From Bryoerythrophyllum caledonicum (Eukaryota > Streptophyta > Bryopsida > Pottiales > Pottiaceae): a stretch of 64,000 nucleotides of DNA. Made by a program: the position numbers and the translations under genes. Of the stretch, positions 1-59,772 are shown one piece after another (positions within the stretch are counted from its first letter, which is position 1; every line of letters starts with the position of its first letter). The notes beneath the pieces are model-generated. The model saw only the letters and a program-made list of their open reading frames with translations, was not told where the DNA came from and did not search any database. The stretch spans positions 19,186,904 to 19,250,903 of the forward strand of contig OZ020517.1 in NCBI GenBank assembly GCA_963971425.1, given 5' to 3'.

Positions 1-2498
1 CTCTGCATACCTTAGAGCATGCATCGCTCTGTCCTCAGAAGAGGTGATCCAAACCCAAACGGTAGGAGTGTTTAGAGTCGGGACCTTTTTCTGGGACAAC
101 AGTGTCTTCAGAAATGCGGAGAAGTATGGTTCCTCTGCAGAGTCGTCCTTGGACGACCACCCAGGGACCTGACGAAGGTCAAGCAGTCCAAGAGGCCACG
201 GTCTGTCCTCCGGCGGTGGCTCAAAATACTCGCCGAATTTCATTTCTTCACCATCAAAGTCCCGAAGCTTGGATGGACCATCATGGTGAGAGAACTGGCT
301 CTTAACGAAGAGAAACTTCGTGAAGAACGGAAGAACGTTGGGGAACTTCTCCACCAAGTGGGAAGCACGCTTTAACTTCCCCGCATTAGTCAACCGCATG
401 GAGAAGAACTCCTTGTCAGGACGACAAAGGAGCATGTTGTAAGTTGCAGAAGACACGCGATGATTTGCCTTCCACGACTTCCACACAACGTCGTCAACAA
501 ATCCGTCTGAAAGTAAAAACTTCAACGACGGGTCAATTGCGATCAACTCCTGCATGACTATGCGCTTCTTCTTCCGGCGGTCAACCCAGTCCTCGTAATG
601 GAAGCAAGAGCCATGAACCACTGCCGTTCTTCGTAGAGTGACTTTAAGGTACCCATACGCTCGATCGCTGTCTACCAGGTAGGTAAACAAATCTCTCAAG
701 TCGTTATCGGTTAGGTGACCTAACCTCTTGAAGAATTCTCGATGGATCGGTGAAACTCTGCTTCCCTTGGCTTCGTTGTATGGAGCCATGGTGTCAGGGT
801 TTATAATCTCACCCCTGCTGTGCAAGTCAAGGAAATCCTCCCACAATTTGAAGATGTCATCAGGAAGTGAGATAACCTTGATCTCATTTGTGAGGTCTGA
901 TGACTTGCTAACCTGCTTCCCTTCCTTTGTTGGATCAATATTCTGGAAGCGGTTTACAATGAGCTTGGAAAACAACTGCAGTAAAAAAACATGTTTTGTC
1001 AGGTCATTTTTAGACTGAAGAATCACACCACTCTAAAAAAATTGAGTCTTAATATTTTTCATACATCGCATTGGATACCAGTATCCTCGACTCGAGGATA
1101 ATCCTGAGGTGGATCACTTACCAGGTACTTCTCAGTGTCGAATACAGCGCCATTCATCCGAGTTGACCCTTCTTCTTGCTGGTAACTTGGACGTCCGGAG
1201 TTAAGCCAAATTCGACGGCAACTAGCTATCTGATTACCCCAGGTAGGTTGCGCATGGTCGAGGTAGTTGGTGTCATTGTAGAACTTTGAGATTCTTTGCA
1301 ACTTTAAAGGATCTCTTGACCAGACCACGTATGCATCCCATCGCTGCAGGTCCCTCTTTCGAGATACTCCGCAATTTTCATTGTCTTGCAGTCTCTTGGA
1401 TGCCTCAACGCTATGTTGTCCGTTAATGAGCATGAACTTGCCATCCTTGATGGAATCCCATGAGATGGGCACAGCCTGAATCGGCTCACCATGCTCATCA
1501 ATTGGACAGATGCAGATCTTCTGACGTTGATTGACGTCGCCAAGTTGCACGAGGAAATCCATCGTGCTTAACACAATGGCTTCCTCCATCCCCCTGATTA
1601 CGAACTGCGCCTTCGCGACAACGCACTGCTGAATTCGCACTGAATACGATGATTCTAATGGAAAGCAGCCTCTGCATTCCTCCCAGAACAGTCTTTGTGA
1701 TTCCGTGATCTTCTGAAAGTCCACCTGCGGGTCATTTCTGGCTTTCTTTGGGGTCGTGGACCTCGTCATTGTGGATGAAGAGCTACCACCGGCTGTTGAC
1801 TTCCGCTTCTTGTTTGAAGGTTCCCCCGGCGTAGTAGGCGCAGTCGAAGGGCGCCTGGGAGGTGCACGACTTGAGGTACGGGGTGCGGTTGAACCTGACG
1901 GATTTCCCTGGGCAGTTGATTTTCCTCGTGCTTGACGACGTGCACTGGCTTCGACTGGAATTGGTCGAGCCTCAAATGTTGACAGAAGTTGGTGAATCCG
2001 CACTAATCGTCTATTTACTTTTTCAGCATCCACGTTCGTCCAGGGCTCATACTTTTCGAACGCCTCCCTTAGTGACCCCTGTCCGTTTCGCGTGACACTT
2101 TCAAGCAATTCGGAGAAGTCGAACTGACCGAGAGTGGGCCCAACTTTGACAACAATGGAGTGGCAATGTGGCAGATCCACTCCAGCTCCATCAAAAGCCT
2201 GAATTCCAAGAACTATGAAGTCTTGTCGTTGCTGCTCAACAAACGTAACTCTCTCTTTTCTGTTGAGTGGGACATAAGGGATTTCATTGTTCACCTTGAT
2301 GGTTATGTGAACAGACTTCCCAAACTTCGAGAATGACCAGCTTTTTACATTATTCTGGAACTCCCATAGAGTCCCATAGTTTTCAACGACATCGTCAATG
2401 AACGGGGTTGGTGCTAGAGGATTCTCAAATCTCTGAATGAATATCTCGGAACCAGAGTAGTCGTAGGAATCCTCTTTTGGCTCAAGTGAAGATGCCAT
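1..2498 (-). CDS. ParB/sulfiredoxin-like domain protein, two exons seen, 3' part outside window
   Basis: Exon 1 runs from the ATG at 2498 down to 1065. A GT-AG intron (1064-976) follows, then exon 2 from 975 to the window edge with 325 open codons in the same phase. A TTG lies 15 bp upstream in frame, but the ATG directly follows a good 3' splice acceptor (CATCTGCAG), so a 5'UTR intron is likely. An N-terminal region of about 185 residues is followed by a Ser/Thr/Pro-rich basic linker with an NLS-like KKRK. Then comes a ParB-like segment ending in the motif INGQHSVEASK (about residues 358-368), equivalent to the 'DGQHRxxA' signature of the ParB-N/Srx fold. Exon 2 resembles no family I can name. 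DNA or nucleotide binding and a nuclear location are inferences. Palindromes lie at its start and inside exon 1. Domain call is by motif only. Confidence 0.68.
976..1064 (-). other. intron 1 of the ParB-like gene (89 bp)
   Basis: The donor GTATGA follows the codons for Gln-Cys-Asp. The acceptor is a T-rich tract ending in ACTGCAG, after which the reading frame stays open for 325 codons to the edge. Without splicing, the frame stops at a TGA at 1059-1061, inside the proposed intron. Both exon ends are phase 0. Confidence 0.65.
1082..1100. promoter_or_regulatory. 19-bp palindrome inside coding exon 1
   Basis: Exact consensus TATCCTCGACTCGAGGATA. It encodes Tyr-Pro-Arg-Val-Glu-Asp near the end of exon 1 and lies 17 bp upstream of the splice donor on the minus strand. 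It is the only copy of the family inside a coding exon. Confidence 0.8.
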
Positions 2499-2545
2499 CT
2501 GCAGATGACACAATTTTGAACTGATTAGTACAATACTTTTACACG

Positions 2546-3035
2546 TATTCTCGAGTCGAGGATAACTGGTATTTTCTTATCTTCTTTATAATTGACCACG
2601 GTTATGTTTTTTATCCTCGAGTCGAAGATAGCTTTCGTTTTGTTGTTAATAGGTTTCAGACTGTAACTAGGAAAAGCAATTATCACATATCGGTATTTGT
2701 AGGATTAAATTAGATGAGGTAGATTGATACCATGACGATGGTTATCGGTTCATGACTGTCAGCTCGACTGGTTAGAAAGTTTTGAATTACGTAAAGTAAA
2801 CTTGACTTGTGCATGATTTGGGATGTTGGACTTGTTAGGTTGTTATTTAGGACTTTTATAGCAGCAAAATTTTCAAACAGACATTTTATCCTCGACTCGA
2901 GGATAAGCTACGACTCTTGTATGGTTGGATAACTCTTGTCCTGACCTTATCATACTTTCAGTAACGGTATAGTGATGTCAGACTTTATAATTTTGCACAC
3001 TATCGTTAAGGGAGTTTATCCTCGACTCGAGGATA
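2546..3035. promoter_or_regulatory. cluster of four 19-bp palindromes upstream of the ParB-like gene
   Basis: Copies at 2546-2564, 2612-2630, 2887-2905 and 3017-3035. The half-sites TATCCTCG and CGAGGATA are separated by three bases. The last two copies are exact consensus; the first two carry one mismatch each in a half-site. The cluster begins 48 bp upstream of the ATG. Dyad symmetry suggests a homodimeric DNA-binding protein, possibly one of the two neighbouring gene products (inference). Confidence 0.8.
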
Positions 3036-3739
3036 AATTGCGCCTGCGGTATGGTTGTATACTGAAAGACACACTTTAATACCCTTGATTCTTATTATTA
3101 ACAATATTAGATGTTCAGCACTGGCCACTGCAAGTAGATTCATGATAGCTGGATTGCTCACCTGTAAATTACCAACAAGTTTGTGGGTATGATATGCAAC
3201 TCAATGAGTTTCGAATCGCCCTGGAAAGCAAGTTGAAGTGGAGAACATCAGTTTCATGAGCAAAACTTAACACAACCAGACGCACACACACAAATGTACA
3301 CATACGTTGGACCACACAAGCGTAAAACATCACATACATACTCATACTTTCAATAAACAATCTCAAAAGCAGAACTTAGTTGAAGTCGATTACTTACTTG
3401 ATGTGTATAGCGAATATCAATCGACAAGCTCCTCCACAGCACAACGACAGTATATGAAATCGGAGTTGAAATTCCTATCACTCGCAGAATCTAGGTACCC
3501 AGAAGCTTTGCAACACTAGAAGCACAATCTCCTGATTTGGTGAGACCTTCTTCAAAACCCTCGCAACACTCTACGCGATCTGCAAACCCTGAAATCTTGT
3601 ACAAAACTCCTTTCAAATCAAACCCTAAGCTTGTACTTACTAATCACCTTCATTCTTACAATTACAACCGTAATCAGACCTCACAAAACCCTGGCGACAC
3701 TCTTTCACACAGTGCTCAACGCAACCACAATTGACAACG
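3036..3739. other. intergenic, nothing recognised
   Basis: AT-rich sequence with stops in all frames. It probably contains 5'UTR or intron sequence of the minus-strand ParB-like gene, but no exon can be supported. Confidence 0.4.
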
Positions 3740-4030
3740 TATGTGTAGCACGCGCGCTCACACACACGCACTCACAAAGCAGCACTCACAAAGCAGCACT
3801 CACTCTCGCGCACTCACAAACATACACTCTCTCTCACGCACTCACAAACAAACGCTTACCCTAACGCACACACACCAACACACGACACACAATGACACAC
3901 ACAAAAACCTAACACACCACCCTCACACAAAAACGAGCCCTCACGCACCCTCACAGCAAAACTCACCCTCATGCACCCTCATACAGAAACTCACCGCACG
4001 CACCCTCATGCACATACAAGCACTCACAGC
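3740..4030. repeat. CACTCACA-type low-complexity tract
   Basis: Degenerate short tandem repeats built from CACTCACA and CACACA, flowing into a short GC-rich purine stretch (about 4030-4100). It translates only into Thr/His/Ser-rich nonsense and is not coding. It may mark the 5' end or promoter side of the ParB-like gene. Confidence 0.7.
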
Positions 4031-4385
4031 TCGAACGAGGAGGAGGAGTGAGAAAGGCGGCGGCGGTTTTAGGTCAGGTTTGCGCCCATGACCGCGCAAT
4101 AGATATCATCCGTCGATCAACGGTTGCGACGGATGGATGACGAATCACATTAAGTTCAGAAGTTTCTTGGAAATGGTGCGTCGGTTTGTTTAACACTTTG
4201 TAATTTTATTTTATATTTTCACCTTTTATCTTCATTGTCTTGCCTTTCCTTACTACTTTAGTTAACACCTATGGTACCGTATTAAGAGTTTGACACCAAT
4301 TCCCTTCAAACTTATTGGATTCTCTTGCTATAAAAAATGAAGGAGACGAAAACTTTTATTTTTAGTTTTGACCGTAGGATCTCAA

Positions 4386-5220
4386 TTAACCCCTAAAGGA
4401 CCACTACCACTTTCGCTCTAATACCAGTCCAAAACTGGCACTGCCAAAATGAGACATGAAAATCACATTTTAAAGTGAATTTCGGATTTTCAACCGTAAG
4501 ATCTTAAAATAGACTCGTACATGAACAAACCATTGAATTTTGGTTGCAATTCACTGCGCGGATTGATAGATTTAGTGTTTAAAGTCAAAACAATTGTTCA
4601 TTTTCTTTGAGTAGATAAGCAGAGTTTTACTTCATTTTGCATCAAATTTTTGCATTGTACAAGGTCTAAATCTTTTACCATTGTCTTAAGCATGATGTTA
4701 TTTCCCATTACACCTTTTTTTAGAGGTAAAAAGCGGTGTAGTATATTCAAAACAAGTGTGCAAGGAGTGGAGGTTCAAAAATTGCTATTTCACGATTTTT
4801 TATTTTTGTGAACTACGTTTGTATTGAATGATAATCCAAACGGTCAAGATGAAGTTTTCACCACATATTGTTGTTGAAAAAATAAAAAGTGAAAAATATG
4901 TAAACCTTTAGGTTTTATGTAGAAAAGATGAATATTTTTTCCCCCCTTCCCCAACAATGTCTGAAAATGTTTGACTTGGAATAAAATGCCTTTTAACACT
5001 AAAGACAATAATTTTATTTAAACAATTCGAAAGAAGGAAATATTCTTTATTTGTGGGAAAAATCTCAATGTCAATAGAAACTTTTGTCAAAAACTTTCGA
5101 AGTGCCGTGGTCCCCAGTTTTTGCTTTAAGTGATACTAACTTTCAAACCACAAATCCAAAAAATAAAATAATAATATCTCCACGAAGCTCTTATCAGAGG
5201 CAATGTAGAATAAGAATTTT
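4386..5220. mobile_element. TTAA-flanked ~940-bp family, truncated copy
   Basis: Starts TTAACCCCTAAAGGACCA, the terminal motif of a family present several times in the window, and matches the reverse orientation of the copy at 27284-28836. Homology is lost near 5220, where unrelated sequence intervenes. It carries no gene of its own. Confidence 0.6.
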
Positions 5221-5308
5221 CTCCACTGTGTTTACTGCAGCTGCACAATTCGAATTCAGTTGGTGTCAAATTTTTGCAGTACACAACGTCTAAATCCATT
5301 ACCATTTG

Positions 5309-6010
5309 TTAACCTCTAAAGGACCAAAGTCTCCTTCTAGGGGATTTTTTAATTTTTGGGCAGGCTCCTAAAATTCGGAAAAAAATCAATTTTCTCTGAA
5401 ATTTTTATTCTAGATTGCCTTTCATAAGAGCTTCGTGGTCATATTTTTATTTTATTTGTTGGATTTGTGGTTTGAAAGTTTGTACCACTTATAGTTTTTG
5501 AGGGAAATTGTCAAGGAACTTTAGGGGTTTAGCATGATGTTAGTTCCTTATACACCGAATTTTAGATGTAGAAGGGGAGTGTAGCATATTCAAAACAATT
5601 CTGCAAGGACTAGAGGTTTAAATTTGGCAAATCCACGCTTTAATCCTTCAAAACTTAAAATGTTAGAGATTGATAATCCAAATGGTCAAAATGAAGGGTT
5701 ACACCACATATTGATTATTATGAAGAAATTAAAAAGTGAAAACTATAAAGATCTCTAGATTTGATGTTGAAAAGAAGAAGTATTTTTTTATATCTCGCCC
5801 GACAATGAGTGACGATGTCTAAAAATGTTTCCCTTAGTTCTACGCTATTTCTCAATCAAGTCGCAATCATTTTTTTGATACAGAGAAGGAAAATAATAGT
5901 ACTTGCGAGTATTGAAATTCTCACATTCACTAGAGTGTCCTACCAAAGGTTTCTCGAGCATGGGGACGGAATTTATAAAATCTCTCCTCCCATATTCTCC
6001 ACTTTCTAAG
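5309..6010. mobile_element. second TTAA-family fragment, rearranged
   Basis: Begins TTAACCTCTAAAGGACCAAA in the orientation opposite to the fragment at 4386. Near 5515-5530 the sequence CTTTAGGGG is followed directly by inner family sequence in inverted orientation, so this is a mosaic of at least two copies rather than one insertion. Confidence 0.5.
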
Positions 6011-8949
6011 AAGCTCATTGTAAGGACTTAGGCTATTTATTAGCTAAATACAAGGACTGCTATCTCATATTTGTGGCACTGGTTGTCATAACCCCTAGAA
6101 ATCTAAGCGTTTTTGGGACCTCCAAATCTAAAAGTTGCCATTTTCTACCACCTTGTAGAATTTGAGGTAAGGTCAAATATGTTTGAATGTTGGATGTTTA
6201 TCATATTATGTAAAATCATAACTTTCAAAGTTGATGCATATTATTTTATAGCTTAGAATATATAGTCTATCTTATATAAATGGAGACTTGATAATTGTTA
6301 CCCCATATATTTTGCTCATATTATATTTCTCTAAGAAGTAGATAAAGTTGAAATTTCACTTGCAAAATTGCAAAACCTCATAGAATTATTTCAACATTCA
6401 TCTAAATTGTTTTATAGAAGAATGTGTAAAATGATTGAATGTAATAAATTTGTGAATAATCTCAAGTTGTCTAATAAAAATGTGTATTGTATAAAATTTT
6501 CACACTATGAACGTCAAAAGCATGGAGGCGAACGTCCTTCCATTTACTGCATTTCCTAGTATGTTGCTGCAATAATGTTTCTTGCAAAGCTATTCATGGC
6601 TCAATGTCCCAATATATTATTCGATTTTTACCTAATCCTGGTATGAAATGTGATTTTAGAAAGTATAATTCTACATAGAAATCTTACCAGACCAATTAAG
6701 AATTTCATTTGTTGCATGAAACCAAAATCAATAAAAATTCGTTTTTGGCAACATCTTGGAATTAATTGATAATATATTTAAACCTTTATCTCTAAAAGAA
6801 GAAGGTGAAATATATTTAAAATTCATTCATTTTTTATGAAAGTGAAATATCATCTTGGGGTATGCACTAGCAAAAGTTGTAGAAATCACGTGTGATTAAA
6901 AGTACGGTCTAATTTATTCCTTACATTGGATAAATATTGTAACAAAAGCACATATTTATGACATTGCTATTTCATTATGAAACATGGTTATAAGCATGAT
7001 AATAGCAAACTTTGATTCAATACTAAGGATTAATGTAATCAATTGTAAAGAAGAAGAAGAAGAAGAAGAACGTCGGTCTCCAAAGGAGGCCGACGTGCAT
7101 AAAGTGTCTGTTGGTTCCACTACTAAGACCATGCCCATCGGATTGGGAATTAGTGATCCACTATACATATTAAATATCATGGAAAATGGGGCATAGGGAG
7201 TGAATGATAGATTCTTATGAATATTGTTTGTCTACATTTCTAGAGCTTGAGCAGCTACATGTATAGTTTTTATGAATGTTGCATGTGTTAGATGCTTTGC
7301 AAATTTGAAATTTTTATACTCCTAGAATACATGCATCTTTGGTTGCACACTTTTCTAAAGTATTTAAGAGAACAATATGCTTTGATTTCTCCCAAAAACT
7401 CGTGGTTCTTGACTACGAAGACTTTTTAGATTCTTGGAATCTGTTTTTTCAACGCAGATTCATGTTTTTGTAGTGTTTGCAATGTGTGGATTTGTTTTAG
7501 CATTCATTATCTTGGCTTTCTTTTTGTTATATTTCTTCAACTTCTATGGACTTGCACTATTACGTTCAAGTGGTAAGAAGATATACATAAACAATAATAG
7601 TTACTTTTTTTATGACCCAATAAAGAAATGATGAATACCTATGTAGTGCAAAACTTCACTATGATAAACAAACTTTATTTTAAAAAACACAATGCTATGT
7701 TATCTTTTCTAGTAGGTAAATAAATAGTCCTCCAACAAGACCGCAGTACTGCAGGTGTATACAAATTTGAAGGAGGAGTGCCCCCCCTCGAGAATATTAT
7801 TTTTTTGGTCTTGTACATAGAAAGACACAAGTGAAAATGTATTTGTAGTTCTTTCAAAAAAATTATCCGTTTTGTAATTTCCATTTCCATTGACAATTTG
7901 TTTGATGATTGTCACTTTCCAAGAGTGGCTTTTGATTTAGACTTTTATTTTATTTTATTATGTTAGTATAAATTTTTAGATAAAGTTAAATAATTTCAAT
8001 TTTAGTTGAATATTTTTTAAAACGTGTGCTCGAACTAGCCATTAAGTAAATTTTGATTTGATATATTTTTAAATATTTGGCTTTTTGGTTTGTAAAAAAA
8101 ATTGCTATTTATATATTTCCCTTGACTGATTTCAATTTAACAAGATTCAGAAGTCTTCCTTCATTTGGCAAATTCTATCGGAAATATATGTGTGAGACAC
8201 AAGAAGTTATTCCCTTCATTAAAGTTCTTTGCATATTCAAGAGTAATTGAAATAGTGAAAATTGTAATGAATTTAAGTAGTTTCTATCTTGAATGAAAAT
8301 TAGATTTTGTTCAATGTTTAATTCACAAAGAATATTAAAACGATTAAATAAGATAAAATCTTCTGAAATTCTAATTACTTCTTATTCAAATTATTTTAAT
8401 TTACATAAAGTCAATTTTAGAGTTAATTCAATATATTTTTTCCCCTAATTTACCAATTTAAGATATGTTTTTAATCGATATTTATATAATCGTTTTTGTT
8501 TATTTTTAATTATTTTTAATTATGAGAATTGATATATTTGCTTTGTATTTTTCTTTTGGAATTTTTATTTAAATAAGAATATTAAAACGAATTAAAAAGT
8601 TATAATGTTTTAAAATTACAATTTTTTGTTATTTAAATTATTTTAAATTACATGAAGACAATTTTAGAATTCATTTAGTTTCTTTAATACTCTAATTTAG
8701 TAATTTTAAAAGTATTTTCTATCGTTATTTTAATAATCGTTATTTTTTTCCAATTTAAAAAAAATTAATTAAGCAAGAGAAGTTTTTCTTTGCTTTATAT
8801 TTTTGTTTTTTTTTTGGAACACAAATGATAAAGATTGGTAGCTAACTTTATTTTGTTTTATTTGGGTTGGTAGCTTTCTAAATTAGTGTGACCCTGATAC
8901 CGAGAAATGCTCTTCGTCAGCTGAAAAGTAGTGACATCAATAAAGTATA
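6011..8949. other. AT-rich intergenic region
   Basis: About 2.9 kb of strongly AT-rich sequence with no convincing exon on either strand. The short open frames here lack conserved motifs. The only structured item is the GAA run with hairpin at 7051-7095. Confidence 0.5.
7051..7095. repeat. GAA microsatellite followed by an 11-bp-stem hairpin
   Basis: Several AAG/GAA units run directly into CGTCGGTCTCC, a three-base AAA loop, and GGAGGCCGACG (7071-7095). The stem pairs over 11 positions with one T-G wobble. The GC-rich hairpin stands out in AT-rich surroundings. Confidence 0.7.
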
Positions 8950-9461
8950 ATTTTTTTCCCTCCAAAAAATGTTGCCGTTGAAAATTTCCTTTCCCGCCCA
9001 CCTCCGGTTTTCATGCACAGCTCCGCTCATGACTTTCATACTCAGTTCAAGAGTGTCATTTCGTACTCTCTCCTCTCTAAACATATCAGCATCACCTCGG
9101 CTCCCTTGTTCGTGCATGAAGCATCTGCTTCTTCGGAGTAAGATACTGTATTTGTCGATATTGTTGACTTAGGGTTTTATGTAGAAGTGTAATTGTGTGC
9201 GACTGTGTTTCTTGTACGTTTGCTAGATTCATATTCTCCTATAGTATGCCATTGTCACACAGAACATTGATCTGTGGGGCGCTTCTTGTGTGCTCTCCTT
9301 GTTGCGGCCGTAGGCATTATGTTTATTACAGTTGTGTTGTCGGACCTCCGTTTATGGTGTGAAGTGCATAGAGAGTGATCTCCTTACAAAATGTTCCGAA
9401 AATTTCGGGAGCACTGTAGCATTGCGATCCTCCGTGATTATTGTGTGTCTGTTGAAATTGT

Positions 9462-10630
9462 TATCTTCGGGTCGAGGATACCAATATTTCACGTGATTGT
9501 ATTAGAGGGTAACGTAACTATCTAGTTAGTAAAATTTTCATCACATATATCCTCGACTCGAGGATGCAACTTGAGTTAAATCATACTTTTCCACACGTGA
9601 ATAATTATGTCATTACTCATAATTGGAAATAAGATCTTTTTAAAACAGGTAAGTTATCCTCGGGTCGAGGATAACTGAATCCAATTTGTTGCTATTCAGA
9701 AATCAAAAATCTAAAAATTTCAGACACACTCATTCTATTCAGAATAATAATGACTGTTTGTAATTTCCTCAAACATATCTGATTGGTAAATTATTTTAAG
9801 TATATTCTCTTGGTGAGGATATAATTTATTGGATGGAACAGATTCCTACACATATACTTCTGTGAATATCCTCGACTCGAGGATAACTGCATTCATTTTT
9901 TGGATTTACGAATTGCATGACGAAAGTATAATATAGATTTATCTTTACTATGGCTACGCTTGTTTGTCGAATTTGATATAATATTTGTGCAGATAATATT
10001 CATCTATTATCCTCGTGTCGAGGATAATTGGAAGTGTCCTAATTGAGAGAAGTATTATGTCATTGATGAGATATTCCAGACCTTTATGTATAAATTGTGA
10101 TGATTTCAGTCAGCTTGTAACTGTCTAGTAAGAAAATATTTCATCAAGTTTATCCTTGACTCGAGGGTAAAACTTTAGTAAAATCATGCTTTACCACACG
10201 TGATAAATGATGTCTACACTGACGATTAGGTGTCAGACTATTGAGTAAACATGTTAGTTATCCTCGACTCGAAGATATCTCTTCTCAACCAATTACCTTT
10301 CAAAAATCTAAATCCAAAATATCACAGACATTCTCATTAAGTCCAATAGAATGATGATTGTTTTATAATCCTTGAATCAATGAGATTGGAATATTATTTT
10401 TGGATTTTCTCATGCCGAAGGTAACTTTATTGGATGTTTTTAGTTTCCTACCGAAATGCTGTTTTGGTTATCCTCGACTCGAGGATAACTGGATTCAACC
10501 TTCTTATCCAATATTGCATGACAAAGGTTTTGATCAGATTTATCTTGACTTTGGTTTTGCAATGGTATTGTCCATTTTGATCGACTCTGTGTGTACACAT
10601 TATTTACAGATTATCCTCGCGTCGAGGATA
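9462..10630. promoter_or_regulatory. cluster of nine 19-bp palindromes upstream of the DDE-like gene
   Basis: Copies start at 9462, 9548, 9655, 9867, 10008, 10151, 10259, 10469 and 10612. The half-sites TATCCTCG/CGAGGATA are well kept while the three central bases vary (ACT, GGT, TGT, CGT). Centre spacings of 107-212-141 are repeated as 108-210-143 because the block is duplicated. The best-conserved bases include two CpGs per site, only one of which is lost (to TpG, at 10151) among the nine. Confidence 0.85.
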
Positions 10631-10735
10631 GTTTAAAGCGTCGTGATTAAGAAGAGAATAATATCATTGATGAGATATTCTAGGCTTTTCTGTGTCTATT
10701 ATGATGTTTGTAGGGAGCAACATTTTTGCGGAAGT
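9530..10735. repeat. diverged ~603-bp tandem duplication containing eight palindromes
   Basis: Unit 1 (about 9530-10132) and unit 2 (about 10133-10735) align in order: a TTTCATCA-type start, palindrome, CCACACGTGA, palindrome, AAAAATCTAAA, a tract with CAGACA and CTCATT, palindrome, palindrome, ATTGATGAGATATTC. Site-to-site offsets between units are 602-604 bp. The surrounding sequence has drifted with many indels. Confidence 0.75.
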
Positions 10736-11002
10736 TGTGATGACCACAATATTTTATGTGTTATATATATTTTGATTGTTTTTTTGGAGAACAATTATAT
10801 GTCTGTTGTTGTCCTAGAGTTGAGTAGGACATAAATGCCGTTGGAACTCATTTGAAGGTACAATTGAACTAGGGTTATTTTTGAGTCATTGGTAATCGGT
10901 ATTTTGTTCTGTGTATTCCCTTTTTCTTCAAACTGTCTTCTGACATCTTTTCATACAACTGGTTAACCATTCCTTGATCCCTTCGAATGTGATCTTTTGT
11001 AG

Positions 11003-13816
11003 ATGGAAGAAGCGTCATTTGATAGCGGTTTTCAAGTGCGACCAACCTTGCCTCCAGGTGTTGTTGCATGTGAGGGTATTCCTCGAGCGTCTTGGTTTTC
11101 AAAGCGCGTTGTCCTTCGAAACTTATCAGGCGCTGATGTTGGAATTGGCCTCTGCCAGAGTGTTGATTCTGGTTTTGTTCCTGAAACTGGAGGTCAACCA
11201 CTTGGAAGTGATCATGTTGCGGTTATGATTGCCGAGTCCTTAAATGAGGATGACATTCCTTTGAATTGGATGTTCGCTCTCCGAGCATGGCCAATTCGAC
11301 ACGTCTTCCTTCGTAATGTGAGTTTGTATGACCAAGAACAAACGAGCATTTACAATGCTGCTCTTAAAGTATTTCGTCGTGGACCAAGAGTTGGTGTTCG
11401 ACAGTATGAAAGCAATCGTCAAAGGGCAGAGCATCATTCCCCATCGCATAAGAAAGTCCTACTCACTACACAGTCGATTAACTCTGTGGCAAGCACCGTC
11501 TGTTGTCTGAGAAACTGTACCCAACGATTTCCACGGTGTACAATTTCGGTACTTCGCTCTCAAATTTACCATGACATTGGAGGTGTTTATTTTCGGAAAC
11601 ATGTTTTGCTTGATGTGCATAGGCAGATGCACATAGATTCCAATGGAAACCGTGTGGTGACGCTTGATGGAATTGATGTTTGCCAAGATGCATGGTGTAC
11701 TATCATGGGGGTTAGCCGAGCTACATTCTACCGGTACAAAAGTGATGCAAAGGATGAAGTTCGAGCAGGGCCTCATGGCAATAGTGGCACAAAGAAGCCC
11801 CGCACTCATACTCTACAGGCAATTGCTACTTTGCACAACATACTTGACGATGCTGCCGATCATAGTCCTAATAAGACTACTACACTTGGCAGTGGGGAGA
11901 AGGTCATCTCAAAACATCTTCCGTCATCCTTTCAGTGGAGTGCAGTGCTACCCAAAGTGAATGCGGTGAATGCTAGGTTTGGCCTCAAACCAGTATCCTT
12001 ATCAGGTCTTAGTCGAATTCAAAGCTCTGAATTTGAACAATTCTCCACTAAGAAGCCTGGTGACAACTTTGCTCGTTGTGGGAGATGCGACCAACTTAAG
12101 CAATTGAAGAAGGCTACTACGCGAGGATCCTCCGCATATCAAATGTGGGAAGTCAAATTACAGTTACATCAAGCCTCTCAACAAACTCATCGTATCCTAT
12201 ATTATGGCAACCGAAAGAACTCAGAGGAAAATCCAGATGAGGTTGTGTGCATCATTCATGATAAAATGGACCACAGCAAAACCGCATCTCCCCATTTTTC
12301 TCATAAGAATAAAGCAACAGAGTCTTTTATGAAACTTCCTGTGGCTGTAACAGGGATGATTGCGCATGGACATGGAGATGTCCGCTATGCACATTATAGT
12401 CTTGACATCTTTCCCACCGACTCGAATCACACAGTTGGATCCATTGCTAAGTTACTTCGGGACTTAGAGAGACCACCCGTGTATTCCTCTCGTCAATTAT
12501 TTGTAGGAGGGAGAGCTTCTCCTCTCTTTGAGGCAGTGCTTGCAGATGCTAATATGTGCTTTGGATCCCTTGCAGTTCAACCAGTTGAACCTATTCCTGC
12601 CAAACAATTGCCGCCAATTCTCCAGATGCAGTTGGATAATGCCACAGGGGACAATAAGAATAGATATTTATTTGCTTTCTTCTCCCTCCTTGTTCATATG
12701 GGTATTTTCCGTGAAGTGTACGTCAACTTCTTGCTTGTTGGTCATACCCACGAAGATATTGATGCAATGTTTGGAAGATGGAGTACCAAACTTAAGTCAA
12801 ATAGCTATCCAACGATCCCACTCTTGATGAAATCATTCATGGATGCTGAGGAGAAGCCAGTTATTCCACACCTCATTGAAGAGGTGCCTGACTTCAAGAG
12901 CTTTTTAGAAGGCTATTTGTGTGTTGGCAAGGAGGCCCTTACAGGTCATACAAAGGGCCAACAATTCAAGTTTTACAAGGACTCCGATGGTTTGCCCAAG
13001 ATGCAGTACAAACTGCTTTGTACAGATAGGGATTGGTTGCCAATAGAGAATGGAGGAATTCAACTATGGAAGGTGGCGGCGGATGGTAGGCCAATATTGC
13101 CTCGTGGAGAGCCACTTCCCCTCATTCCACAACGTCATGAGAATTATGATGAGGTTATAAAGGGCATCTCTGGGTTTCTAAGTCTCTGGGAGTCTATGGC
13201 AAACGAGGATCTCTCAGGTGAATACAGGAGGAAGAATGAACATATTATGTACTATTGGAGGGGTGTTAAGGCTGCTCTCGACGTGCCATTGGAAGAATCG
13301 CCTTCCCTACGAACGGGATTTTGGCCACTATCTAGATACGCACCATCAATGGTGGATGAATTTGAGATTGACGGTACATTGAGAGAGGATTACGCAGAAG
13401 ACCCCCCATTCATTGGACAACGACGTCATTGTCCCCCTCCATCGTTTCGGGTCGGTAGAGATGTGCAGGAGGGCTATTTACTTGCGATACGTCCTGCTGA
13501 TGGAGATTTGCGCCCATTTTGGATTGCCTTAGCATTGACAAATCCGCATCCAGATCGTGAACATTCTCACGAGATTAAAGTGCAATACTACAAACCTGCA
13601 TCCATGCGTCATGTGAGTCCGGACACATACGAAGGGTGGGATTCTAGTCATGGGAATAATTGGGTCGAAGAAACTGAATCTGAACCAACGTGGGTGTATA
13701 CAGATTGTATTATAACTGCGTGGAAACCTAGGTTGCGTGGGAGCTTGAGCTCGTCTAGACCCAAAATTCCAAAATCACAGGTGGACATCATCAAGGCATC
13801 TTTAGCTGATTATTAG
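11003..13816 (+). CDS. 937-aa DDE-type transposase/integrase-like protein (DUF7869-like)
   Basis: Uninterrupted 937-codon frame whose ATG follows a splice acceptor, so the whole coding part is one exon. In the N-terminal part is a Cys-rich segment (about 166-180) followed by a possible DNA-binding stretch, DGIDVCQDAWCTIMGVSRAT (222-241). CxxC occurs at 359-362. A core with RNase-H-like spacing has DKMD at 420-423, LDNATGDNKN at 544-553 and VGHTHEDID at 579-587; these acidic residues are candidate metal ligands. A C-terminal segment (about 825-915) with conserved Trp residues may be a small beta-barrel or BAH/chromo-like module. The motif order matches what I know of DUF7869-type proteins in algae, oomycetes and plants, some of which are suspected transposases; function is not proven. 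No frameshift or stop is seen, so the gene may be recent or active. Nine palindromes lie upstream. Confidence 0.75.
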   Translation: MEEASFDSGFQVRPTLPPGVVACEGIPRASWFSKRVVLRNLSGADVGIGLCQSVDSGFVPETGGQPLGSDHVAVMIAESLNEDDIPLNWMFALRAWPIRHVFLRNVSLYDQEQTSIYNAALKVFRRGPRVGVRQYESNRQRAEHHSPSHKKVLLTTQSINSVASTVCCLRNCTQRFPRCTISVLRSQIYHDIGGVYFRKHVLLDVHRQMHIDSNGNRVVTLDGIDVCQDAWCTIMGVSRATFYRYKSDAKDEVRAGPHGNSGTKKPRTHTLQAIATLHNILDDAADHSPNKTTTLGSGEKVISKHLPSSFQWSAVLPKVNAVNARFGLKPVSLSGLSRIQSSEFEQFSTKKPGDNFARCGRCDQLKQLKKATTRGSSAYQMWEVKLQLHQASQQTHRILYYGNRKNSEENPDEVVCIIHDKMDHSKTASPHFSHKNKATESFMKLPVAVTGMIAHGHGDVRYAHYSLDIFPTDSNHTVGSIAKLLRDLERPPVYSSRQLFVGGRASPLFEAVLADANMCFGSLAVQPVEPIPAKQLPPILQMQLDNATGDNKNRYLFAFFSLLVHMGIFREVYVNFLLVGHTHEDIDAMFGRWSTKLKSNSYPTIPLLMKSFMDAEEKPVIPHLIEEVPDFKSFLEGYLCVGKEALTGHTKGQQFKFYKDSDGLPKMQYKLLCTDRDWLPIENGGIQLWKVAADGRPILPRGEPLPLIPQRHENYDEVIKGISGFLSLWESMANEDLSGEYRRKNEHIMYYWRGVKAALDVPLEESPSLRTGFWPLSRYAPSMVDEFEIDGTLREDYAEDPPFIGQRRHCPPPSFRVGRDVQEGYLLAIRPADGDLRPFWIALALTNPHPDREHSHEIKVQYYKPASMRHVSPDTYEGWDSSHGNNWVEETESEPTWVYTDCIITAWKPRLRGSLSSSRPKIPKSQVDIIKASLADY

Positions 13817-14689: not shown

Positions 14690-14883
14690 TTTACAGCATC
14701 CAGAGCCGTTTAGAATACAGAAGTGATATTCAAAATCGTACAATCAGCTTGAATTGCACTTATAAGCTGCATCTGCGTGTAATAGTACCAACTAGTTGTT
14801 TTTACTGGTTGTCTTGTGTTTAGAGAGGCCTCTATTGGTTTGAAGTGGTTTGATTAAATTTTTTGCTTCAACAATCATATGCA

Positions 14884-15843
14884 ATGGTGCATTCCTTTCT
14901 AAAAATCTTTGGATCTGAATTCCACGATCAGGTCCTCCACGCTCACGAACGTCTTCTCGACAAAACCGCCGTTTCGAAACACGACGAAGAATGGTACCCA
15001 CGGCAGAAAAGCATCCGCCCCTCTTTCATAGTACCTCTGAGCCCCATGACCTCTGATTCTGAATTCAGCACCTTGCTAGAGCTGAATGGTGATGCCACGC
15101 CAGCATCTGAGCGAGCCACATGCAGCGACGACGCACATGAGCAACCTGGCCCGGCGCTTCATTCGTGTGTAGTCTGCGACAAGAAATCCACCAAGCTCAA
15201 TATCTGCTCGGTGTGCAAATCGGTGAAGTACTGCTCGCGCAACTGCCAAGTCTCAGACTGGCCATCTCACTAGAAACGGTGCAAGGCTGCCGAGTCCCAA
15301 AAACAAAGCCAACCTTTACCTTCAGGTGCACACTTGACTGATGTGCATACGCTTAAAAGTAGCTATTTTCCTTAGTTACTGGGAGTTCTTCACTATATTG
15401 GCAATCCTCCGAACCTTGGCAAGCCCTCTCTGAACTCATTTTGGCATTGACCTTCGTGTGTGCATGTTTCAGGAGCATCTATACTTCTGGATCCGAAGGG
15501 GAATGGCATGGGCGACAACATCATGGTCTTGATGAACAACCGTGACCCAATTAATTCCAACGCCAATCTCAAGCCTGCTAAAGTGAATCACATGCCCGAT
15601 GATGAGGAGGGCGAAGTCTACGTCGTCAAGGTGCAGTCCAGCCCTCGGGACTTTCTGATCTAAGACCGGCAACGGTCATTCACAACCATGACTTCCGACC
15701 CCCGAGAGCAGGCTGCATTACGGTCTGTAATCGAGTCTGTGAAACACAGAGGCGGAGCCAAAGCCTATCTTTATGCCAGGAACGAGGGCGATCGGTTCCG
15801 TGTGTACCTGGAGGACTTGCCTGAGCAGTATGTGAACTGGTAA
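14884..15843 (+). pseudogene. MYND zinc-finger protein, broken copy
   Basis: The first segment (ATG at 14884, stop TAG at 15271) ends in a MYND finger with Cys-x2-Cys-x9-Cys-x2-Cys-x5-Cys-x3-Cys-x7-His, but the next codon is TAG. The final Cys of the finger lies exactly H-x3-C beyond it (KRC), so one nonsense change in a lysine-type codon cuts the domain. An intron appears to follow, with acceptor TTTCAG near 15471. The next exon reads on until TAA at 15661, and beyond that stop the same frame continues with protein-like sequence to 15843. MYND fingers mediate protein-protein contacts. Two premature stops make a functional product unlikely. Confidence 0.6.
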
Positions 15844-17614: not shown

Positions 17615-18166
17615 GATCCTCTTTATGTAGTCCTGGGCGCCGGTGATCTCCGCGGAGAAGGCTCACCATGAGTAGATGATAGTGCCCGAGCGGCGACCAC
17701 GCGCTCGGGCATGATGGCCAAGTGCGACCCGCGCCACGGGAAGTACATGCCTGCTGTGTCGTGTACTGAGGGAAGTCCTTGGACTGGTGCCCCACGTCCA
17801 TCGGCACCATCACGACCAAGCGCATGACAAGTTCTTGGACTGGTGCCCCACGGCCCTCAGGTGCGGCATCAACTAGCAGCTGCTTACGCTGGTGCCCGGC
17901 GGCGACCGCGCGCGTGCGGCGCTCCATGTGTTGCTCTCCAACACCATTAGCGTCGCCAAGGGTCTCTCCAGGTTGGATATTTAATTCAACCTCATGTACT
18001 CCAAGCGCGCCTTCGTGCACTGGTGCGTGGTCAGGGGCATGGAGGAGGGCAAGTTCTCCGAAGAGGACAAGGATCTCGTGGTCCTCGAGAAGGACTTTTC
18101 TGATGGCATCAACGACAAGGCTTCCGTCACCTCTAGCAAGGAAGGCGAGTTGACAGGCTACAACTA
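17615..18166 (+). pseudogene. alpha-tubulin pseudogene, C-terminal half
   Basis: Frame-hopping translation gives unmistakable alpha-tubulin segments in order: [46 protein letters not shown] and [14 protein letters not shown]. It has in-frame stops, a frameshift and a duplicated 'GGACTGGTGCCCCAC' block (about 17780 and 17837). The GC-rich composition differs from the AT-rich flanks. No intron interrupts it, so a retrocopy is possible. The 3' end abuts the Tigger-derived MITE at 18167. Confidence 0.82.
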
Positions 18167-18993
18167 CAGTCTAACCTTGATAATATCCCACCCTCCGTTT
18201 CACCCAAAAATGTGATATTATCAAGGTGTGACAATTTTGATAATATCACGTTTGTCAATTTTAGGCAGAATGTGATATCATCAGAAAAGAAGGCAAAAAA
18301 AAATTCAATAAAATTCAAAAAATTCAATTAAATTACAACTGTCATACACTTGATTTGCCAACCTGTATCAATCACCATCAGATGTTATAAATCACAAAAA
18401 TCAAATAAATGAATTAGTGAAATCTCATACTGAGACTAAACAAATTAGTAAATCCATTGAAACCTAACATATGATTTATCTCACCTCATGTCGAATGGTC
18501 ATTGAGAAATAACACATGACAAGGTGTAACTAGTTCACATTACACATATAGTATCATCAATTAATTGCCATTCCAGCAATGAACTCACCCCAATGACCTG
18601 TATTATACTAAATCTGTAAAGAAACCAATCGCAAGAAAACCGTTGTCCTCTCCTGAGTCTCAATGCTTTTGGAGCTCAGAACCCTCGCTCTTCCCAGAAT
18701 CCTCGTCTTCACCAAAATCTATGATTTGTCCACATTTTTATTTAGGAATCACCCCCAATCGTAGATACAATAAAACATTCTGACAAGATATGCCATCATC
18801 CACACTTATTCATCCATCCATTTTTTATATTGTCACACTTACGCTACAGATTTTGAAAAAAAAAAAGTGATATTATCAAGGGTGATAGTGATATTAACAA
18901 GGTAGTTTTACACTAAGATAATCTGTTTCAAAGTTTTGGGTGACAATATCAAGGTGTTACATTAACAAGTGTGATATTATCAAGGTTAGACTG
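18167..18993. mobile_element. Tigger/pogo-derived non-autonomous element (827 bp, TA duplication)
   Basis: The ends CAGTCTAACCTTGATAATAT (left) and its inverse at 18991-18993 are flanked by TA. Both ends align with the 3.84-kb element at 43905-47747, including the internal GTGATATTATCAAGG sites; the transposase is absent. It is an internal deletion derivative. Confidence 0.82.
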
Positions 18994-18995
18994 TA

Positions 18996-43904: not shown

Positions 43905-46900
43905 CAGTCCAACTTTGATAATATCACACCCTCCGTTTCACCCAAAAGTGTGATATTATCAAGGTGTGACAATTTTGATAATATCACATTTGGCAATTTT
44001 AGGCAAAATGTGATATTATAAAAAAAAATCCAAAAAAAATCCAAAAAAATTTCAGAAAATTAAATAAAACAACAAACTATCATACACTTGATTTTCCAAC
44101 TTGAATCAATCACAAATACATGCCATAACTCACAAAAACCAAAGAAATGAATCACTTTTAGTTAGTGACATCCATATTAGGACATAACAAGCTAGTAAAT
44201 TCATTGAGACCTGACATAAATGATTTATCTCACCTCATGTGAAATAATCATTGAGACATAGCACGTGACAAGGTGTAACGTATATAAATTATGAATAAAA
44301 AATCTTCAATAGCAAAGAATAGACTTGAATGATTCAAAATAAATAAATAAATCAAATACTAAAATAACAATAAGAAACATTATAATGTTTCATTGAGATC
44401 AAACAAAGACCTCTCACTAGACACTAAAAAACTTCTAATGTCGCATTGCTTTGTTGATGTTGATGTTAGATGTGCAACACCTATTTTAATGAGTTTGTCG
44501 TGAGTTCTTTCCATTGCTATCAACTCTTCCGTACTAAAGAATTTAGAACCTTGACTAGCCATAAAATTGAAGACATCTTTTGCACACATTTGTGCATCAC
44601 CTAATTTTATAACTTTAGGCTCAACATCATCAATGTCAAGAACAATCTCTTCTTCTATGACATCACTTAATATTTCTTGTTCATTTTGTACCAATTGAAC
44701 AAGATCTTGAGTGGAGTATTCCACCTCAAATTCATCCTCCCCCTCCATGTTGACATATTCCGTTGGAGAAAGTTTCTCCAACGGTTGGCCATGAACGTCG
44801 GAGCCCAAGTTCAAAGCTCCAATTAAAGTTCCCAACTCTAAAACCGCCTCCTCTATCCTTGTCTTCACACGTTCATCAAGATTTTGAATATCTGCATTCC
44901 AATGTGCAGGTAGAATAGAGGATTTTCTCCAACAATTTCTAATAGTCTGATCATCTAACTCATGCCATGCCGCCACACACCATAACATAGCTTGAAAGAG
45001 ATTAACATTTAACTTCCCCAAATCCTGAACTGAGTTGCTATCAAACTGCTGTAAAGTCCAACTAACAAGCTTTCACTTGTAGCACATATTAAAAGCAGCA
45101 ATCACTCCCTGATCTAAAGGCTGAACAATGGAAGTGACATTGGGAGGAAGGAATAAAATAGTGATGTGCGAAAGTATAAATGCATTAAAACCATCAATCA
45201 CTCTTTTTATCTCCCCATGAATGTCGTGGCTTCCCGCATTGTCCATGATAATGCAAATCTTCCTCCCATTCAATGCCATCCGCCGGTTTTCACCTTTCAC
45301 CCAATGGGTAAAGATATCACCGTTCATCCATGCTGTACTATTAGAGTAATAGTGCACAACATTGTTTGGATCAAACTGACGAGGAAAACACCTTGGACGC
45401 GTTGACTTGTGAATAAAGACAATCTTCAACCGCTCTTTGCCTGAGATATTAGTGCAAAGACCTAGAGTGACATGATCTTTTTTCTTCTTATTTCCTTTAA
45501 CTTTTCCAATGTTCAATGTGTTGCAAGGAGGGGCTCTATAGTACAAACCTGTCTCATCAAAGTTGAAGACATCCTCGGGATCATAATCCTTCAAAATAGA
45601 GGGCATCTTTGCCATAGCTAGTGTCACTCCAGCTGCATCCGCATCTCCAGACTCGTCATGTAAATAATGACAGGCAATTCCATGCCGAGCTTTAAAGTTT
45701 TGCAACCATCCATGAGAAATCTTAAAGTCGTTGTCAGAAATCCCAAATGATTCTCTCAACTTATCAGCCTTACGAACAACCACATCATATGTAACCAATC
45801 CCCTCCGCGCTCGTACCTGGCCAAACCATAACACCAAAGCCTTCTCAAGCTGTGGCCATTTTCCATCTCGAGCCCGCCGTACACTGCCTTCACGTACACC
45901 CGCACCTAAATTCAGCCACTTCTCTTCGGCACGTAAAATCTTTGTGATTGTTGTACGATCCACAAGCTTGAATCCATGTTGACTCACCATGTATTGAGCA
46001 AGTTCTTCATGTTTCAAAGCCGGTTGAGCTTTGTGAACTTCACAAATCTTCTTTTTGTCAGCAGCTGATAAATCCACCCGTTGTCGTTTACTTGCCATTG
46101 CAAGAACCTCCTTCTGTTTAACCATTCAATAAAATCTTAAACCCTAAACTCAACAATTCTCACAAAATTGAAGGGTAATTTTGAACAAGATACAATTCAC
46201 TAGAGAACATTCACAAGCGTCCTACCTGGATGAGAGTGGCCGCACTACAGTACCAGCTGCAATTGATATTCCCCGCAAATACTGACAACATCCTGCAACG
46301 TGTAGAACTTCTACAACCTCGTTGAAAGCCCTGCGACCTGTCGTCGCGACCTGCTACTGCCGCCTGAAAGTCCTTCAAAGCAGTTAGGAACAAACTCGAG
46401 ATCTGCTTTCGCATTTATTTGTTAAGAAAAAAATAATGGCGAATCAAATATCATTGGACACCTTCCTGGTACTCCAGCAAAGAGCACACCTCAGCATAGA
46501 GCACACACTCCAGCAAAGGCCACACCTCAAAGCATTGCTTGTACCAGGATTTAATTCGTAGTTAGCTAAGGAATTTACATGTAGAATGAGAAGGATGATT
46601 TCTTGCCTCAGGTTTAGCACTCGCTCCTCCAGCAAGTCTTAATTATTAAAATATGGTACACTCTGGAAGGAGCGGCTTCTTCTTCATCTGAATTTTTGTT
46701 TGTTAAAACTCTGTAGGAAATTCCGGATCAGAGCCTAAGCCAACAACGCATATAATTCTTCATGGTGATCCACCGCTCAGGCCCATTTCTACCTCAAAGG
46801 CCTTCATAGCAATCCACAATCACAACCCGAGCTAATCAATCCACCACTGCAGTACTGTACCACCCTAAAGATCACACATGATTCCTACACCTAGTAACAA

Positions 46901-58300: not shown

Positions 58301-59772
58301 CTGTGACTATTCCATCTAGTCCTAGAGACTTTCTTGTGGCAAGGTGTTCAGAGTTCTACTGCATAGGTCAGCTCTAGAAGGGTGATATCCAGCTTTAATA
58401 TTTCTTGCATGGTTGGAGAGAGTTTGGAGCTTGGTCCTCTTAGGAAGACTTCTTGGGCATTTATAATCTCCACATATTGTGCCCTTCTAGAGTACATGTT
58501 GGAGTAGAAGTTAAAGCACTCATTCTCGAGGTCTAGTTGCTTGGTGTGGCGGACTCCATCTTCATCTAGTAGTTCTATTAAGCTCAAGTGTGAGGGTCTT
58601 TGCCTATAAGTGCTAAAGAACTCCTTTGTTTGTTTTTCCCCTACCCTCTTCCATTTTGTCCTTCCTCGGGTTTGTTGTCCTGCCAATTTCCAGTCCTCAC
58701 ATTGAGTGAGGGCTTCCCTAGCCTGATTCTCTGCCTCCTGGGCACCTTGGTCATCTAGGCACTGGTAAAGGTTGTTCCTGGCTCTCTCTAGGTTCTCCCT
58801 TGCCTCTTCTTCCTTTTCTCGTTGTTCCTTTGCTTTCTCAATGCAGAAAGTTTTGTACCACTTAAGCACCCCTCTAATTTTTCCAAAGAATTTAAATTGA
58901 GGGGGGCAAGCTTGCCATCTCTCCTTCAATTCCTTCTCCACCTGTTCGTCCTATAGGTAGAACGCGTTCATCTTATATTTGGCACCTCGGGGGGGGCGTG
59001 GTCTAGTTCTATATGGAAGATAACTAGTAGGTGGTCAGAATATCCATTGTTTCTCATAATCTTATATTTCTTAATGTGTTCTTCCTGGTTGCTTCCTGGG
59101 CCTAAAAAGGTGTAAAACCTGTCCAAATATTCAAGGACTCTTTCCTTTCCACTGCGTCTATTGTCCGATGTGAAGGTTACAACTTACTGGTTGATTGTGG
59201 TTAAAACAATCTTGAACCCCAAAGAAAACTTTAAATAAATTAAAGCCATGTAATTCCCTGTTGGGGATTTGCCTCCCTGAGGCCGATGATTTGTCTCTTG
59301 GGTTTTCCACAAAATTCCAATCTCCTCCAATAATCCATTTAAGGTTGGGATTTAAATTTTCCATCAACTCTTGCCATAGCATTGATCTTTGTAGGGGAGA
59401 GTGCGGTGCATACATGTTGAGGATATCAAGGTCTCCACTAGAGGCTCCTCTAAGAACGACCCATTGTGCCGTTTTACCGTTGGAGGAGCCTTCTTCTATT
59501 ACTAGGTGTTTGATTTTAGAGGAGACCATAATGCTTAGTCCCCCATATCCTGCTAGTGCTTGATTTCCTTCCACAGTTGCACAATTGAAGGCCTTAGACT
59601 GCCTCCATAATCTAAAAGCAAGAGTGTCTAGAGTTGGGCCTCTTAATTTGTGTTCTTGTATGCATAAGATGTCCAAACTACGGAGGTAGGGTCTAAGGTA
59701 ATTTCCTAGTTTTGCCACATTGTCCGGGTTATTAAGCCCTTGTACATTTTGGGTTAAGACCTTCACATTCAT
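55380..59772 (-). pseudogene. L1 ORF2 (endonuclease, reverse transcriptase, zf-RVT), broken
   Basis: The apurinic-endonuclease domain (59772-59158) shows NVQGLN, IQEHKL and GGDWNF, followed by a frameshift into LDRFYTF. A linker is at 58941-58348. The RT (58035-57469) has FLKLDFSKAYDRVD and GFRQGCPLAPYLF, but the catalytic box reads QYADG instead of the usual YADD, so the second Asp is lost. The region 56750-55800 carries thumb-like sequence and a zf-RVT motif (CDQGETESIVHRFWPC). The product would nick DNA and reverse-transcribe its own RNA; here it is dead. Confidence 0.82.

Follow-up and report, generated by a model that had tools for sequence, protein, structure and literature searches.

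Palindromes in predicted introns of a divergent moss gene pair look like a subfamily-specific self-recognition code

The window, which is the whole 64,000-base stretch of moss DNA analysed here, carries two divergent genes near one edge, gene 1 on the minus strand and gene 2, encoding a DUF7869 protein, on the plus strand. Short palindromes are clustered within the predicted introns of both. The features of the locus are given below; intron calls are predictions from splice sites and homology, and a slash marks the splice junction.

1..975, minus: gene 1, second coding exon, continuing past the window edge
976..1121, minus: predicted gene 1 intron between its two coding exons
1082..1100, minus: palindrome, perfect arms, 21 nt past the donor of this predicted intron
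1122..2498, minus: gene 1, first coding exon; weakly predicted PH-like barrel at the N terminus, then a predicted ParB/sulfiredoxin-fold domain bearing the INGQHS motif
2499..3161, minus: predicted gene 1 leader intron, donor CAG/GTGAGC, acceptor CTGCAG/ATG, four palindromes
2546..2564, minus: palindrome, one arm mismatch, predicted gene 1 leader intron
2612..2630, minus: palindrome, one arm mismatch, predicted gene 1 leader intron
2887..2905, minus: palindrome, perfect arms, predicted gene 1 leader intron
3017..3035, minus: palindrome, perfect arms, predicted gene 1 leader intron
9138..11002, plus: predicted DUF7869 leader intron, donor GGA/GTAAGA, acceptor TTGTAG/ATG, nine palindromes
9462..9480, plus: palindrome, one arm mismatch, predicted DUF7869 leader intron
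9490..10705, plus: old tandem duplication of about 604 bp, four palindromes per copy
9548..9566, plus: palindrome, one arm mismatch, duplication copy 1
9655..9673, plus: palindrome, perfect arms, duplication copy 1
9803..9821, plus: degenerate palindrome, three mismatches, possible decayed site
9867..9885, plus: palindrome, perfect arms, duplication copy 1
10008..10026, plus: palindrome, perfect arms, duplication copy 1
10151..10169, plus: palindrome, two arm mismatches, duplication copy 2
10259..10277, plus: palindrome, one arm mismatch, duplication copy 2
10469..10487, plus: palindrome, perfect arms, duplication copy 2
10612..10630, plus: palindrome, perfect arms, duplication copy 2
11003..13816, plus: gene 2, 937-aa DUF7869 protein, transposase-like by motif

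A scan of both strands of the entire window for TATCCTCG-N3-CGAGGATA, allowing up to three mismatches, located 15 places; shuffled sequences gave a mean of 0.05 and a maximum of 1, and none of 100 shuffles reached 15. Fourteen of these places have zero to two mismatches, the remaining one, at 9803, is weaker with three, and at this threshold no palindrome lies outside 1082-10630 on either strand. The scan thus confirms the first-pass annotation, which had listed fourteen copies with at most two half-site mismatches and none elsewhere in the window. Its placement of the sites just upstream of both genes needs correction: the site at 1082 is inside gene 1, in a predicted intron, and the other 13 are inside the predicted leader introns rather than in a shared promoter region. 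All 14 palindromes are therefore contained in predicted introns (one internal, 13 leader), and the 6-kb stretch that separates the two leader introns has none. Many of the centres read A-C/G-T, so that such sites are odd palindromes of the form 9-1-9.

Comparison by VIA-align matched the modelled first exon of gene 1 to the ParB/sulfiredoxin fold, in agreement with the ParB-like identity originally proposed for the minus-strand gene, and the conserved motif in the ParB-exon alignment A1 (all 17 homologues plus the window) is NGQHS or DGQHS. The second exon was modelled on the paralogous exon of L003, a related locus described below, whose predicted structure matches the beta-class amino-DNA-methyltransferase fold, with the bdelloid rotifer N4CMT structures 8s9m, 8s9n and 8s9o among those compared. 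Alignment A2 combined 26 of the 88 homologues with three loci; the catalytic [DNS]PP[YFW] motif occurs in none of 29 aligned rows, some of which are fragments, so the gene 1 protein is probably not an active methylase. Gene 1 is probably the descendant of a ParB-methylase. Sequence searches returned no convincing solved-structure relative of gene 1, and NCBIfam gave no match for either gene. The gene 1 paralogue continues with more open frames, one with an NIF/FCP1-like phosphatase domain.

Gene 2 matches DUF7869 by sequence (E 4.8e-46), and Transposase_21, the tnp2-type family, was not among its sequence matches up to E 1. Residues D420, D423, D545 and D587 are invariant in 23 DUF7869 sequences (alignment A3, in which the window joins 22 of 99 homologues), and the protein, transposase-like by motif, is probably a DDE-type nuclease. 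Sequence comparison found no solved transposase or other convincing solved structure, and a literature search found no paper on DUF7869 by that name.

Genes of the gene 1/DUF7869 family also lie on four contigs of a second, moss-like sample (L002, L003, L004 and C71), which had been binned in the cyanobacterial MAG AVDCRST_MAG81. A bacterial origin of these contigs was rejected in view of their spliceosomal-type introns and of named relatives that are moss proteins. DUF7869 was present in one of 386 genomes sampled from that cyanobacterial phylum, AVDCRST_MAG81 itself, and in an earlier 29-genome sample of the phylum it was again confined to AVDCRST_MAG81. Given the introns, the moss relatives and the rarity of DUF7869 in the phylum, we read these contigs as moss DNA in the bin. 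A viral or phage origin was likewise rejected, as IMG/VR scans yielded relatives of neither gene; in the same database the TATCC pattern occurred on one contig with one site, and TYAGCTCG-N3-CGAGCTRA on 11 contigs with one site each, which we read as chance.

Palindromes are present on all four contigs of the second sample. Five perfect copies occur in L002, the gene 1 orthologue (76% identical): its predicted leader intron contains four, and the fifth follows the same donor as in the window by 21 nt. Some palindromes of this sample may not be intronic: that at L003:6592 falls in an open frame, and that at about 490 on C71 is situated past the 3' end of the DUF7869 frame.

The arms vary by subfamily, with TATCCTCG, TCAGCTCG and TTAGCTCG found in DNA and TATCGTCG read back from protein tails. 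The distant paralogues L003 and L004 carry TCAGCTCG-N3-CGAGCTGA in place of the window pattern, as perfect 8-3-8 palindromes in seven of eight and six of six cases, respectively, and TTTAGCTCG-N3-CGAGCTAAA precedes the start of another DUF7869 gene. Predicted proteins that read into the next intron also encode the palindrome: 24 matches were found in 19 of 105 gene 1 proteins, all within the last 60 residues, compared to two for 45 scrambled arms, and four of the 24 are in the proteins of L002-L004 themselves. The tails of P0107, where it occurs two times in a single tail, and of P0109 reveal a change of both arms from TATCC to TATCG. Arm types, mostly read back from protein tails, were placed on two trees. 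The exon-2 tree, built from all 88 homologues and two loci, requires three changes versus 6.9 when shuffled, and the ParB-exon tree, which combines 17 homologues and four loci with residues 1-420 of P0194, requires two versus 3.7; P0123, P0128 and P0157 fit TCAACTCG equally well as TCAGCTCG. On the exon-2 tree TCAG and TTAG take two changes apiece, so the arm code is not one-to-one with clades.

Plant enhancers often reside in first introns, and a host transcription factor that merely regulates a conserved host gene pair could occupy such sites. We regard this as improbable, as subfamily-specific arms are unexplained by a shared host factor, and as every exact match of the two palindrome patterns in the 4.8-Mb bin, which is too small for more than a minor fraction of a moss genome, is on the four contigs of this gene family (15 and 5 matches, all 20); backward-read control patterns gave 2 and 0.

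Across the window and its relatives, the first palindrome lies 21-26 nt past the donor in six predicted internal introns, a position kept between genes about 25% identical; the site at 1082 has its counterpart at the same place in L002 and in the read-through tail of P0100. This spacing and the confinement of all 14 window sites to predicted introns favour the main rival, in which the sites are RNA hairpins in the pre-mRNA, with 8-bp stems and a 3-nt loop, that control splicing or retention of the introns and are perhaps bound by the unit's protein. The spacing fits hairpins better than a plain operator, as does pairing of the site flanks beyond the core (2.08 pairs versus 1.16 in shuffled flanks, 0 of 5,000 shuffles). 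Six introns were folded: predicted folds are strong in three (z of -6.2 for L003 A, -6.4 for L003 B and -4.0 for L004 B) but weak in the window intron (-1.2, folded with borders a few bases off), L004 A (-1.6) and L002 (-2.2), and although five of seven arm changes in the window alone leave a G-U pair on the transcript, the other two being broken, all 40 sites together give seven G-U against nine broken pairs, with no clear preference for RNA pairing. Moreover, many A..T centres extend the DNA palindrome where a 1-nt RNA loop is impossible, and A-C-T and A-G-T centres both occur on the transcript strand. We consider the hairpin explanation unlikely.

The tandem duplication in the DUF7869 leader intron, compared as 9490-10100 versus 10093-10705, shows that the palindromes are held more constant than the surrounding sequence: arms are identical at 60 of 64 positions (94%) between copies and the ungapped rest at 347 of 531 (65%; Fisher p 3e-7). 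The arms keep their sequence and not merely their pairing, a further point against hairpins. Neutral palindromes, perfected by hairpin-templated mutation or by gene conversion between copies, would fit the flank pairing past the core and, through conversion, the like arms within one locus. This origin is very improbable, given the contrast between arms and rest, the recurrence of the same arms at unrelated positions in divergent flanks, and the conserved post-donor position.

The palindromes thus go with this gene pair, in the window they are in predicted introns, and their arms differ between subfamilies. We favour, with somewhat better than even confidence, the explanation that the two-gene unit itself encodes a factor, most likely dimeric, that recognises the palindromes by sequence. 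The gene 1 protein, with its predicted ParB and methyltransferase-like folds, would bind the palindromes as DNA. Occupancy of the leader introns would let the unit control its two divergent transcripts itself, as has been reported for Spm, whose TNPA can block transcription and regulate its own element (PMC2613891). Bound palindromes would also identify the unit as self to the DUF7869 protein, and introns would offer a place for many sites inside genes without damage to the coding sequence. The first-pass view of an element with its own recognition protein and operator array is partly supported. The unit may be a mobile element that brings along an operator code, or a domesticated descendant of one.

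A broader reading, which we advance tentatively and with less than even confidence, is that these loci represent a kind of moss unit, mobile or domesticated, that has not been described before. In it, a captured ParB-methylase without the usual catalytic motif would read the palindrome of its subfamily within the introns of the unit's two genes, so that each subfamily would have a private code for self-recognition, evolving together with the protein. Literature searches on moss intronic palindromes or transposons and on ParB-like plus transposase genes in moss gave nothing relevant by title among the matches listed, and none was found on a new DDE transposase superfamily in Physcomitrella. A plant nuclear gene for a ParB and methylase-like protein beside a transposase-like gene, with three arm types in DNA and one more deduced from protein tails, supplies a natural set of candidate protein-site pairs for studying how recognition of DNA can shift although all copies of a site remain similar. 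Should the proteins bind, they would provide a lead on the DUF7869 family.

Bacterial ParB-parS and Noc-NBS systems use clustered palindromic sites similar in size to those of the moss, and ParB CTPases, which bind parS, carry a CTP-binding GERR-type motif and a ParB HTH. Gene 1 resembles ParB in its predicted fold, but NGQHS or DGQHS replaces the GERR-type motif, the gene is eukaryotic with introns, and there is no sign of a partition role here. ParB-methylase fusions of bacteria and phages, for example Bce_0392 (PMC5512222), share the combination of a ParB-fold domain with an amino-DNA-methyltransferase fold predicted for gene 1, whereas in the moss these domains are split over exons of a nuclear gene and [DNS]PP[YFW] is absent from all 29 aligned rows. 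The bdelloid rotifer N4CMT is likewise a bacterial-type amino-methyltransferase captured by a eukaryote, comparable in fold to the moss model; 4mC is reported as a mark in bdelloids (PMC8885841), so that N4CMT is taken as active, whereas the moss protein lacks the usual catalytic motif. In contrast to CACTA (En/Spm) elements, the sites here form palindromes, those of the window fall within predicted introns of the two genes, and the proteins are DUF7869 and ParB/methyltransferase-like rather than tnp2 and TNPA. Nevertheless, CACTA elements with TNPA and TNPD (PMC2613891) share with this unit the encoding of both a transposase and a DNA-binding protein by the element (both putative here), together with arrays of short repeats whose sequence diverges between subfamilies, probably along with the binding protein.

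Fourteen copies of the 19-bp palindrome TATCCTCG-N3-CGAGGATA had been listed in the first-pass annotation, and all were verified in the window with 0-2 mismatches each. The accompanying claim that the window holds no others stands at up to three mismatches, save for a weaker copy at 9803; at this threshold 0.05 sites are expected in a shuffled window. Their placement upstream of two genes requires revision, as thirteen sites lie in predicted leader introns before the start codons and one lies within gene 1. The protein relatives assigned to a named organism come from two mosses, Physcomitrium patens and Ceratodon purpureus, which suggests that the window is DNA of a moss or a closely related bryophyte. 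Gene 1 (ParB-like) and gene 2 (encoding a DUF7869 protein) are organized as follows.

2498-1122, minus strand: first coding exon of gene 1
1121-976, minus strand: predicted internal intron of gene 1
From 975, minus strand: next exon of gene 1, continuing past the window edge
Donor at 3161: predicted leader intron of gene 1, 663 bp
Donor at 9138: predicted leader intron of gene 2, 1,865 bp
11003-13816, plus strand: single coding exon of gene 2

Predicted introns hold 14 of 14 sites (gene 1 has one in its internal and four in its leader intron, and the gene 2 leader has nine), and in both genes the splice acceptor abuts the start codon (CTGCAG before ATG in gene 1, TTGTAG before ATG in gene 2). 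Directly downstream of gene 2 is a MYND zinc-finger frame (14863-15273, plus strand; E 3e-11). Elsewhere the window, part of a 437-Mb genome, carries a stretch that looks like a MITE (18165-18995; 27-bp inverted repeats, 96% complementary and 777 bp apart, enclosing TGATATTATCAAGG repeats), a pogo/Tc5-like transposase fragment (45073-46125, minus strand; DDE_1 E 5e-25, Tc5 DNA-binding domain E 2e-13) and pieces of a LINE-type element (57469-59772, minus strand; reverse transcriptase E 2e-17, endonuclease/phosphatase family E 4e-10).

An alignment scan of genome contigs with gene 1 matched three contigs, L002, L003 and L004, all from a single cyanobacterial MAG, AVDCRST_MAG81, under whose name public databases list the proteins P0101 and P0118. 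These contigs look like moss DNA despite their bin, given their introns, their moss relatives and the restriction of DUF7869 to 1 of 386 sampled genomes of the MAG's phylum, namely AVDCRST_MAG81 itself. L002 carries a gene 1 orthologue (76% identical) with its acceptor likewise directly at the start codon (TTGCAG before ATG) and five perfect palindromes, four of them in a predicted leader intron; the fifth lies 21 nt past a donor shared with the window. In the paralogues on L003 and L004 (~25% identical) the palindrome is instead TCAGCTCG-N3-CGAGCTGA, with seven perfect copies on L003 and six on L004. Sites beside checked donors lie in predicted introns and most others lie between exons judged by eye; one, at L003:6592, falls within a putative 217-aa open frame. 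Downstream of the methyltransferase-like exons of L003, a NIF/FCP1-type phosphatase domain (5224-6024; E 2e-14) may be an additional exon of the paralogue; its first motif is DLNG, and in such phosphatases this motif is usually DxDx. A second DUF7869 gene, on contig C71 of this MAG, has an acceptor before its start codon, offset by one base, and is preceded by one perfect and two one-mismatch TTAGCTCG-type copies, which the flanks lengthen to TTTAGCTCG-N3-CGAGCTAAA; an extra site at ~490, past the 3' end of the frame, has two mismatches to the full 19-mer.

Throughout the 4.8-Mb bin, exact matches were sought to AGCTCG-N3-CGAGCT and to the TATCC type, giving 15 and 5 sites versus 2 and 0 for backward-read controls. 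A protein search placed the second exon of gene 1 on three contigs and DUF7869 on one; all 20 sites are confined to these four contigs, each of which has them. The association of palindrome and genes is more than a peculiarity of one locus. Additionally, matches of both gene types occur on contigs of identical size in four cases (46,150; 224,779; 19,989; 1,184,779 bases), each presumably one contig; such pairing is absent for most matches of the two types.

Many database protein predictions continue past the end of an exon, and their final residues are therefore a translation of the intron that follows, from which the DNA arms of homologues can putatively be deduced. Among gene 1 proteins, 19 of 105 gave 24 read-back matches to one or other of the three arm types found at the DNA level (four from the L002-L004 proteins themselves), all within the final 60 residues, whereas 45 scrambled arms gave two. 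The 99 DUF7869 proteins yielded one, which lies in P0046 close to its N-terminus. A type altered in both arms, TATCGTCG...CGACGATA, fits P0107 at two sites and also P0109. Leaving the outer arms free also yields scattered matches within protein bodies, which we read as chance. The arm types group on trees and differ between subfamilies, taking 3 changes on the exon 2 tree versus 6.9 when shuffled, and 2 versus 3.7 on the ParB exon tree; TCAG and TTAG require two changes each, and types have therefore switched or reverted.

Sequence comparison indicates that the sites are under constraint. A segment of ~604 bp in the gene 2 leader intron was long ago duplicated in tandem, and each copy has four sites; between the copies the arms are identical at 60/64 positions versus 347/531 in the ungapped remainder (Fisher p 3e-7). 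Furthermore, the first site of internal introns starts 21 nt past the donor in the window and in L002, 26 and 25 nt in L003, and 25 and 24 nt in L004. The main rival to a DNA site, a function as intronic RNA hairpins, draws on flank pairing beyond the core (2.08 versus 1.16 in shuffled flanks, 0/5,000 shuffles; p 0.006, 0.0004 and 0.14 by palindrome type), strong predicted folding in three of six introns and a G-U pair retained in five of seven arm changes in the window. Across all 40 sites, however, arm changes give 7 G-U versus 9 broken pairs, and DNA symmetry is preserved at many palindrome centres; we consider the hairpin reading unlikely. We moderately favor the palindromes as DNA recognition sites of the unit's own factor, and the constant core, (C/G)TCG-N3-CGA(C/G), with variable outer arms fits a DNA-binding family with drifting specificity.

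A dimeric factor encoded by the gene 1/gene 2 unit would bind the palindrome, and the leader-intron sites could then stop or adjust transcription of both genes; the palindromes might also label the unit for its DUF7869 partner protein. Near-identical DUF7869 proteins form large clusters of up to 647 member sequences, which may mix assemblies, and these sequences suggest that the gene 2 type is present in many copies. We propose that the unit is a transposon. TNPA of Spm is reported to block transcription and to regulate its own element (PMC2613891), and the proposed control of both genes through leader-intron sites resembles this.
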